From contig NZ_CP015520.1 of the NCBI RefSeq assembly GCF_001647085.1, positions 930,001 through 994,000 on the forward strand: 64,000 nucleotides of DNA, read 5' to 3'. The notes beneath the pieces were generated by a model. That model was not told the DNA's origin. It was given only the letters and a program-made list of their open reading frames with translations, and did no database searches. Shown in pieces: positions 32,466 through 34,199 of the stretch; position 1 is the first letter of the stretch; each line of letters opens with the position of its first letter. A program made the translations under genes and the position numbers. This DNA comes from Thermococcus piezophilus. Its GTDB lineage: Archaea > Methanobacteriota_B > Thermococci > Thermococcales > Thermococcaceae.

Positions 32466-32543
32466 GCCCCGGTGGTGTAGCCCGGTCAATCATGCGGGAC
32501 TCTCGATCCCGCGACCCGGGTTCAAATCCCGGCCGGGGCACCA
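32466..32543 (+). tRNA. tRNA-Glu (anticodon CTC)
   Basis: The 78-nt gene folds as a cloverleaf: acceptor GCCCCGG with CCGGGGC, anticodon stem CGGGA/TCCCG with loop CTCTCGA (anticodon CTC, U33 and purine 37 in place), T-arm CCGGG TTCAAAT CCCGG, discriminator A and an encoded CCA. It decodes GAG. It is co-transcribed with the tRNA-Ile that follows 13 nt later. Confidence 0.93.
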
Positions 32544-32556
32544 AAACCTTTCTCGC

Positions 32557-32633
32557 GGGCCCGTGGCTCAGCCTGGTCAGAGCGCCCGCTGATAAGCGGG
32601 AGGTCCGGGGTTCGAAGCCCCGCGGGCCCACCA
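32557..32633 (+). tRNA. tRNA-Ile (anticodon GAT) with a short anticodon loop
   Basis: Acceptor GGGCCCG/CGGGCCC, T-arm CGGGG TTCGAAG CCCCG and encoded CCA are perfect. The anticodon arm is CCCGC - TGATAA - GCGGG, so the loop has six bases instead of seven; the base expected at position 32 (usually C, giving CTGATAA) is missing. Identity is set by GAT flanked by T33. The total is 77 nt where 78 would be expected. A six-base loop would be unusual for a tRNA that is normally essential and single copy, so a missing base in the sequence is possible. Confidence 0.85.
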
Positions 32634-32640
32634 GTTTTAC

Positions 32641-32662
32641 AAACTTCGCCTTCGCGAAGTTT
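32641..32662 (+). terminator. Hairpin after the tRNA pair
   Basis: AAACTTCGC (32641-32649) and GCGAAGTTT (32654-32662) form a perfect 9-bp stem with loop CTTC, 7 nt beyond the tRNA-Ile CCA. It may aid 3'-end formation or processing of the tRNA transcript. No long T-run follows, so classical terminator function is not certain. Confidence 0.4.
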
Positions 32663-32733
32663 GACCAAGGTTGGTAGCTCCTTTTTGAGGTGCAAGTTCT
32701 TGAGAGGTTTCTTACATTAAAAGCATTGTTTTA

Positions 32734-32845
32734 AGTGAGAACCTATCTAAGGACTCATCGTAAAGGGTTTAGCCATAAAAAGACGCCCGTAGGGCGTCAG
32801 AGGAAGTAAACCCACTTCAAGGACTCCCCTAAACAGGTTCTCACT
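32734..32845 (+). ncRNA. Candidate structured RNA with three nested stems
   Basis: Three complementary pairs are nested in order: AGTGAGAACCT 32734-32744 with AGGTTCTCACT 32835-32845 (11 bp), GGGTTTA 32765-32771 with TAAACCC 32807-32813 (7 bp), and GACGCCC 32782-32788 with GGGCGTC 32792-32798 (7 bp, loop GTA). The two internal loops both contain AAGGACTC (32749-32756 and 32819-32826). This 112-base domain would fold as one long irregular hairpin on either strand; the strand is assigned only because the tRNAs upstream read this way. No open frame crosses it. It does not match RNase P, SRP or a C/D-box RNA as far as I can see. Confidence 0.4.
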
Positions 32846-33415
32846 CAAAAAGGAAACTTCAACTTGGAAAACCAACTCGTAATAACGCCTTTAGTGATGA
32901 GCTACGAACTTTTGGTGAAGCTTTTTTCAAAAGCTTCAGCGCTGGCGGAAAGATGGCGTGTAATTTTAAATGTACTTGCTTTAGAGTGGTTCACTCTTTA
33001 ATCACCAATTTTGTAGGATTTCACTTCCGACAAGGCGTTCAAAGAACGCCAGAATGAGAGTGAAACTGTTGAATGGGCGGGTTTTAAAGTTAAACCACCA
33101 TTCTAAGGGCGATTTTAATGTGCACGCTTTAAGTTCCAGCCAAGTTGACAAAAAGGGAAATCTTTTGGTCAAACTTTGCTCTGCTTAACGAAACTTAACG
33201 AATGTACGGACAGTTTGGGTGCTAGCCTTCAGCAACCTTTGCTGGACAAAGTTTCAGTGCTGGCGGAAGGTTTGCGCGTGGTTCTAGGGACACTGTCCTT
33301 CGGAGATTATAAGACAGAAACCAAGTTAATCTCCACCAAATTTGGGCTCTAGTCTGTTCAAGTCGACTAAAACATGGGGGATTTTGTTCTGTTTGGACAG
33401 ACTATAATGTGGTGA
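32846..33415. repeat. Gene-free stretch packed with inverted repeats
   Basis: At least seven further stems follow in series: GAAGCTTTT/AAAAGCTTC (32917-32937), AGAGTG/CACTCT (32983-32997), TTTCACT/AGTGAAA (33019-33065) enclosing GGCGTTC/GAACGCC (33034-33050), GAATGG/CCATTC (33071-33103) enclosing GGTTT/AAACC, TTGACAAAAAG/CTTTTGGTCAA with one mismatch (33145-33172), GGACAGT/ACTGTCC (33208-33298) enclosing CAGCAA/TTGCTG, GGAGATTA/TAATCTCC (33302-33334), and a 12-bp arm pair (33351-33362 with 33392-33403) that pairs fully if G-U is allowed. A core CAG(C/T)GCTGGCGGAA occurs twice (32937-32950, 33255-33268). CTTAACGAA is tandem at 33184-33202. No protein-like frame was found. An RNA family, or decayed transposon ends, could produce this. 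Confidence 0.45.
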
Positions 33416-33430
33416 GGATCTTTCCTCAGG

Positions 33431-33538
33431 AGCGGGGAGAGCCGGATTCTTGTCCTCTACGGCCTCCGTGATGTTGGGAAGACAACGATGCTTGCCCGGG
33501 TAAGGAATTTTAGTTTCATTGAACTAGAGCCCGGTTAA
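33431..33538 (+). pseudogene. Fragment of an archaeal P-loop ATPase
   Basis: One frame reads SGESRILVLYGLRDVGKTTM, then LARV and ends at a TAA about 30 codons later. The LYGLRxxGKTTML pattern is the Walker A strand-loop of the archaeal ATPase family (MTH1475-like, often mobile or toxin-associated in Thermococcales). Everything after the P-loop is gone, so only ~35 codons of the N-terminus survive. The end overlaps the 3' end of the split MazF gene on the other strand. Confidence 0.55.
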
Positions 33539-33906
33539 AAATAGTTTTCTCAGGCTGGCTCTAACATCATCGATTTTTTCAGGGTACAGCATCCCCATTC
33601 TGGTCCGGACTTCACGTTTTGAGACGGAGAACATAATGTGCGGCTTTATGAGGCTCGGCCGGATAAAGGCCCCCCATAAAGGCAAACGTCATCTCCCGTT
33701 ATTTCAACATTGTACTCCTTGAACCCGCTCCCAAGTTTGGACGTTATTTGGCAGACCACGATGCTGTTGCTGACTCTGTTGAACTTTGAGTTTGAGAGGA
33801 TCAAAACGGGGCGGGGCTTCTTCTGTGCCGAGTCGGTAAAAGGAAAGGCCACCGTAATAATCTCCCACTGCTGGAGATCTCCTTTGGGCTCACATCTCTG
33901 GCTCAT
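33524..33906 (-). pseudogene. MazF/PemK-family toxin, split by one frameshift
   Basis: The first frame gives the N-terminal two thirds of a MazF-like endoribonuclease: GDLQQWEIITVAFPFTDSAQ, then KPRPVLILSNSKFN and NSIVVCQITSK. After a run of six C on the plus strand (about 33670-33675) the frame changes and continues as IRPSLIKPHIMFSVSKREVR to a TAG at 33524-33526. A seventh base in that run restores a complete ~125-residue toxin. The 5' end overlaps the antitoxin gene by 17 nt. The N-terminal Arg/Pro/Val core of the RNase fold is intact. A sequencing error in the homopolymer would make the gene functional. Confidence 0.75.
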
Positions 33907-34171
33907 ACTTCACACCCTTAACCTCGCTCCAGTACTCGTCGGCCTCGCTTTCCCAATCCTCGGCAAGGATGGGCTCTACCATCTTCTGGATAGCTTTCAG
34001 GTACTCTTCATCCTTGGTCTCCTTTGGGAGGAATTTGTTTCTCATTATGAAGTCCCTGAGGGCCTCTTTGATGACCTCACTCCTGCTGGAGTAGTACCCC
34101 GCCTGAACCAGCCGGTCTATTTCGGCCACTAGTGCCGGGGGAATCCTGGCGGTGATCTTCACGCTGGCACC
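33890..34171 (-). CDS. Ribbon-helix-helix antitoxin (MazE/CopG type)
   Basis: The ~93-residue protein has an N-terminal RHH DNA-binding domain (SVKITARIPPALVAEIDRLV, then SSRSEVIKEALRDFI) and an acidic C-terminal tail (EDWESEADEYWSEVKG) of the type that occludes a toxin's active site. The start at 34171 follows GGTGAT by 5 nt; the GTG or ATG at 34186 overlaps that element. It overlaps the MazF-like gene and precedes it, the usual antitoxin-first order. Paired direct repeats over the start region suggest autoregulation. Confidence 0.85.
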   Translation of the reverse strand, partial: GASVKITARIPPALVAEIDRLVQAGYYSSRSEVIKEALRDFIMRNKFLPKETKDEEYLKAIQKMVEPILAEDWESEADEYWSEVKGVKYEPEM

Positions 34172-34199
34172 CATTTGTATCACCATTTAACCCATTTGT
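34169..34199. promoter_or_regulatory. Direct repeats at the antitoxin start, candidate operator
   Basis: ACCCATTTGT occurs at 34169-34178 and again at 34190-34199, 21 bp apart, so both copies face the same side of the helix. The first overlaps the antitoxin start codon. Two ribbon-helix-helix dimers bound side by side would fit this spacing. Confidence 0.45.

Follow-up and report, generated by a model that had tools for sequence, protein, structure and literature searches.

A tandem array of palindromic, probably mobile DNA elements behind a tRNA gene of Thermococcus piezophilus

Palindromic dispersed repeats are already known as a kind. MITEs and foldback elements are short, non-coding, of inverted symmetry, multicopy and polymorphic among relatives, while the REP/BIME palindromes, with their RAYT enzymes of the Y1 family, form tandem extragenic units of alternating types. 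Fungal mitochondria harbor double-hairpin elements, mobile hairpin units in intergenic DNA. Here, we describe a row of hairpins behind a tRNA gene in a 64,000-nucleotide stretch of the T. piezophilus genome (the window), which is a member of a large DNA palindrome family with two types, A and B. These resemble MITEs, REP/BIME palindromes and the fungal elements in the respects just named, the last in that they, too, appear to be mobile. Yet unlike MITEs, A and B sit at the 3′ ends of RNA genes, as tandem A/B arrays, and neither a target-site duplication nor an autonomous partner was found for them; unlike REP/BIME units, they are nested palindromes of 200 to 300 bp, most of whose carriers lack a Y1/RAYT enzyme; and the fungal elements are much smaller and have no defined link to RNA 3′ ends. 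What seems new is the tie to RNA-gene 3′ ends together with cassette-like turnover. We found no description of the elements in the open-licence literature, subscription papers being outside the scope of the search.

Within the genus, integrase-driven inversions in cultures of Thermococcus nautili ran through a 176-bp stretch shared without a mismatch by two tRNA-Gly genes, and the in vitro crossover fell within the 3′ half of the tRNA plus the strictly conserved sequences right after it, as described in passages of PMC5495485. That study covers the enzyme and the inversions, and these passages do not describe elements of the A/B type; we infer that the shared downstream stretch may be such an element.

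The array behind tRNA-Ile(GAT)

Coordinates below are those of the window and refer to its plus strand unless stated otherwise, single hairpins being given without a strand. The array follows a tRNA pair, tRNA-Glu(CTC) (32466-32543) and tRNA-Ile(GAT) (32557-32633), both found by ARAGORN and Rfam, with the CCA of the latter (32631-32633) forming its left border. The 6-nt linker GTTTTA (32634-32639) leads from the CCA to the first hairpin; linkers of 0 to 6 nt are seen again at other loci and move with the element. Then come element A, element B and a decayed B-like piece, C. A sequence-only reading of this DNA had proposed at least ten stems, several of them nested, starting at 32734. The stems are there, but the row begins at 32640, with 6 nt between it and the CCA of tRNA-Ile, and they group as two long palindromic elements plus a decayed third piece. 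As that reading had also stated, the interval is free of open frames (no ORF of at least 60 aa).

Element A, a palindrome of ∼300 bp (32640-32937), was delimited by alignment to its own reverse complement, by its relatives and by alignment A1. It aligns with its reverse complement end to end (32657-32923, 277 columns, 62.8%, E 1e-14), the inverted symmetry expected of a MITE. Its left terminal hairpin, CAAACTTCGC CTTC GCGAAGTTTG (32640-32663), recurs behind many tRNAs, and its apex hairpin, GACGCCC GTA GGGCGTC (32782-32798), is 97% Watson-Crick across 33 copies. A hairpin common to the A/B junction (32917-32937) leads over to element B, a palindrome of ∼240 bp (32938-33181) with a right-hand hairpin at 33138-33180, which was defined by self-alignment, relatives and alignment A2 (32943-33142 against its reverse complement: 58% over 200 bp, E 2e-4). 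The conserved left end of B, AGCGCTGGCGGAA (32938-32950), rests on alignment A2 and on exact genome matches, those to AGYGCTGGCGGAA numbering nine in the window's genome; its apex hairpin, GGCGTTC AAA GAACGCC (33034-33050), is 97% Watson-Crick across 40 copies. Both apex hairpins are G+C-rich and central, and both elements adjoin terminal hairpins. Folding of 32700-33420 gave z = -3.96 on the plus and -8.95 on the minus strand, with 0 of 20 shuffles equally stable; judged by self-complementarity and by folds on both strands, the hairpins are real and above chance. At other loci (L036, L105, L138), small hairpins such as GTTGGAGCTTCGCTCCAAC are inserted within the loops of terminal hairpins.

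Piece C opens with a decayed B-like left end (33190-33284; core CAGTGCTGGCGGAA at 33255-33268), recognized from its relatives and from a 39-nt direct repeat of 77% identity, 318 nt apart, which ties the start of C to the core of B and contains the shorter repeated core noticed earlier at this spacing. The remainder (33285-33415) leads into the 5′ part of a broken AAA-ATPase gene. In genome G058 (L117), where this AAA_14/DUF4143 ATPase gene is intact, the right end of C is matched by the DNA directly preceding it; the window retains only a relic (SRILVLYGLRDVGKTTMLARV..., 33440-33537), recognized by its translation against the intact gene. One arm pair, 33351-33362 with 33392-33403, had been taken as a hint of RNA function. 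It does comprise 10 Watson-Crick and 2 G-U pairs, but because it lies within piece C, in the part matching the ATPase upstream region, it is uninformative on A and B.

The immediate surroundings offer observations of their own. Just past the array, on the minus strand (33646-34186), lie genes for a PemK/MazF-like toxin and a CopG-type antitoxin, and a similar pair is located beyond the array of another genome, G002 (L118). The tRNA-Ile(GAT) at 32557-32633, the sole one found in the window's genome, reads CCCGC-TGATAA-GCGGG where its relatives have CCCGC-CTGATAA-GCGGG; because its anticodon loop is one base short, ARAGORN did not name it. The missing base is either a sequencing error or a real oddity.

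Family range and placement behind RNA genes

A and B are dispersed elements, as one of the suggestions in the sequence-only reading had anticipated, and are confined to Thermococcaceae. BLAST relatives among 94 family genomes were found for A in 66, for B in 35 and for C in 20. An exact hairpin pattern, searched in one genome per GTDB species, hit 62 contigs, every one of them with Thermococcus, Thermococcaceae or Thermococci in its title. Sequence-only covariance models matched the window's genome, G013, G010 and G003, gave two weak matches in G060, and found none in G022 or in the two tested genomes of genus g3, which is presumably Pyrococcus. BLAST against plasmids and phages returned no match, and pattern matches on viral contigs were dropped, as none of them matched an A, B or C profile.

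The elements sit at the 3′ ends of RNA genes. We inspected 44 tRNAs each in three genomes (every Rfam-found tRNA in the window's genome and in G013, nearly all in G010) and found about half to carry A or B, starting 0 to 6 nt past the CCA; tRNA-Gln(ctg) and tRNA-Tyr are among the sites empty in all three. The searches behind many of our aligned copies included or favored tRNA neighborhoods, but the GTDB hairpin search, with 49/64 sites at most 1.5 kb from a tRNA 3′ side versus 19% at random, and the sequence-only models are free of this bias. The latter yielded 20 clusters (8.0 kb) in the window's genome, 12 of which abut a tRNA 3′ end, and 25 clusters (11.5 kb) in G013, where 18 do so (random, ∼1% in either case). 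The remaining clusters in G013 include copies at the H/ACA RNA Pab160, at tRNA-Trp and another intron-containing tRNA, at a tRNA-His 3′ fragment and at a protein stop codon. In the window's genome, the others include tRNA-Trp, with the element after the 3′ exon, a tRNA-Gly 3′ fragment and a protein stop codon. A few clusters are without an identified upstream RNA, and in other species an element follows the C/D RNA sR36.

Several of these sites deserve description. About 18 kb from the intact tRNA-Gly(TCC) gene is a 52-nt copy of its 3′ end that matches it exactly (G000:C1, ∼314.68-333.05 kb; L362, L255), with an array on the copy and none on the intact gene; an integrated element has probably split gene and array. 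The same pattern is seen for tRNA-His in G013 (L372). In L075, L126/L369 and L367, the arrays are directly preceded by a conserved sequence (CCCGACGAGTAGGGGGTTGCGATGACGTCGGGACCCCC...) that looks like RNA but is unannotated; it may be an H/ACA RNA not yet described. A protein gene with the C-terminus ...VFMPRDWYPKLW has an element right after its stop codon in several species (L366, L374, L063, L064, L183), of type A in some and with a B-like end in the window's genome. At L059, L093, L217, L285 and L146, another repeat (CAAGGGGGCTCCGCCCCCTTATCTCTCTGTACTCTCAAACCCC...) is either placed behind tRNAs or part of an array, and it probably represents a third type of element.

Such a placement, with starts 0 to 6 nt past the RNA 3′ end, one prevailing orientation and several unrelated RNA classes in front, would suit a role of the elements in terminating or insulating, at the 3′ end, stable-RNA genes with high transcription, a role kept up by selection although the sequence turns over. 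We consider this possible yet rather unlikely: about half of the tRNAs do without an element, the models found no copy in G022 or in the two genus g3 genomes, and arrays of up to four units, some of them inverted, are superfluous for termination.

Turnover between close species

Elements at RNA-gene sites are replaced much faster than the surrounding genome changes. The insertion-site polymorphism that the sequence-only reading had proposed to check is strong: behind one and the same tRNA, different species have A first, B first or nothing. A good illustration is tRNA-Val(tac) in the close species G010 and G013, whose flanks are ∼97% identical. Here, identity is 97.7% over 1577 bp upstream, counting the tRNA, and 96.8% over 629 bp downstream, whereas the arrays in between are unlike in both length (505 versus 865 bp) and type. 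Where orthologous tRNAs carry the same element type, the elements have a median identity of 65.8% (n=25), compared with 80.4% for best copies inside one genome (n=63), and a within-genome copy is closer than the orthologous-site element in 19/25 cases. With orthologs thus less alike than copies within a genome, and types alternating, the elements move or are recopied. Some sites nonetheless look vertically inherited, such as Pab160 in G010/G013 (93%) and tRNA-Trp in G018/G058 (92%). No fully clean empty site was found among the tRNA loci compared; the best candidate, tRNA-Arg(tcg), also differs by ∼100 bp of flank. The single filled/empty comparison, whose empty site is not clean, revealed no target-site duplication.

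The array therefore probably consists of foldback elements, palindromic DNA that is mobile and codes for nothing, in two related and modular types; directly 3′ of stable-RNA genes, such elements are repeatedly gained, lost and replaced. The main source of new copies would be exchange between the 3′ ends of RNA genes, by ectopic recombination or gene conversion, in which one homology arm is the 3′ half that tRNAs share and the border on the other side is formed by the terminal hairpins. A case of recent copying is found in G010, where a tract of 331 bp is the same base for base at tRNA-Leu(gag) and tRNA-Leu(caa); it starts at nt 47 of the tRNA and extends to include the first B element. For copies behind C/D RNA, H/ACA RNA or protein genes, gene conversion between tRNA genes offers no explanation. 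More speculatively, and with the odds against it, the elements could represent a new mobile-element class that finds structured RNA-gene 3′ ends whatever their sequence and builds hairpin-joined, cassette-like arrays of interchangeable palindromes by a mechanism matched to no known recombinase or transposase.

Hairpin ends, small size, multiple copies and the lack of coding capacity would also suit miniature derivatives of a hairpin-ended transposon, for example, of the IS200/IS605 (Y1 transposase) or REP type. We regard such an origin as improbable. The Y1 transposase (PF01797) occurs in 25/94 genomes and is absent from the window's genome (G000), from G013, G010 and from most carriers, and it was dropped as a candidate mobilizer since its occurrence does not follow that of the elements. 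IS200/IS605 ends are not whole-element palindromes, unlike the elements here. Y1 was the sole transposase family searched; neither an autonomous transposon with A/B ends nor a transposase was noticed. An earlier suggestion, that the hairpins are ends of decayed transposons, was not confirmed, since we came across no longer element sharing these ends, though the elements do look mobile.

Base pairing and consequences

The mobile foldback reading concerns DNA, and the stems are palindromes with little sign of RNA-type selection. Terminal hairpins were scored where possible in 161 distinct tRNA-adjacent sequences classed A or B. For A, 1161 pairs comprised 1154 Watson-Crick, 3 G-U, 3 A-C and 1 other; for B, there were 343 Watson-Crick, no G-U, 1 A-C and 36 other pairs, mostly a conserved internal mismatch. 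Because the hairpin search gave credit for Watson-Crick pairs and made no distinction between G-U and A-C, the ratio of these two is fair and the Watson-Crick share inflated. The arms co-vary (CTTCGC/GCGAAG, CTTTGC/GCAAAG, CTTTTGC/GCAAAAG), and the strand-asymmetric, G-U-including compensatory changes of an RNA family were not found. Structural selection on an RNA should leave far more room for G-U than for A-C, which is why these counts argue against RNA. The scarcity of G-U could in part reflect hyperthermophily, since tRNA stems here show just 1% G-U (acceptor plus T stems at the same loci: 1460 Watson-Crick, 15 G-U, 0 A-C). Mismatches in the long stems show a weak strand bias (550 G-U to 378 A-C in A, 199 to 161 in B), and per-stem counts in smaller alignments a mild excess (154 to 61 in A, 242 to 172 in B); all pair counts were taken over related copies and hence carry no p-values. 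With G-U nearly absent from terminal hairpins and the long-stem bias weak, DNA palindromes are favored over structured RNA, and any RNA selection or transcription-linked mutation would, on these counts, be weak at most. In searches with cmscan against Rfam 15 at gathering and relaxed thresholds, we obtained only tRNAs and chance matches and none to A, B or C. RNAalifold on full alignments recovered the apex hairpin alone for B and a few short stems for A, a poor output for which we suspect alignment gaps.

The sequence-only reading had also raised the option of RNA, as a structured noncoding molecule of several domains or as a family of elements; despite stable predicted folds, the mild G-U excess in A stems and the site downstream of transcribed genes, we consider this very improbable, given the near absence of G-U from terminal hairpins, the lack of Rfam matches and the replacement of most elements at orthologous sites.

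If the elements are indeed mobile foldback DNA, the 3′ flanks of Thermococcus tRNAs would be a fast-changing compartment packed with near-identical palindromes. Passages of the T. nautili study report 104 bp as enough for integrase-driven chromosome inversion (PMC5495485), and the shared tracts are longer than that, reaching 331 bp for one pair of tRNA genes within a genome, so that they may contribute to the inversions frequent in the genus. The elements would further complicate the annotation of ncRNAs, and they would prompt one to ask by what means a DNA element locates the ends of RNA genes.
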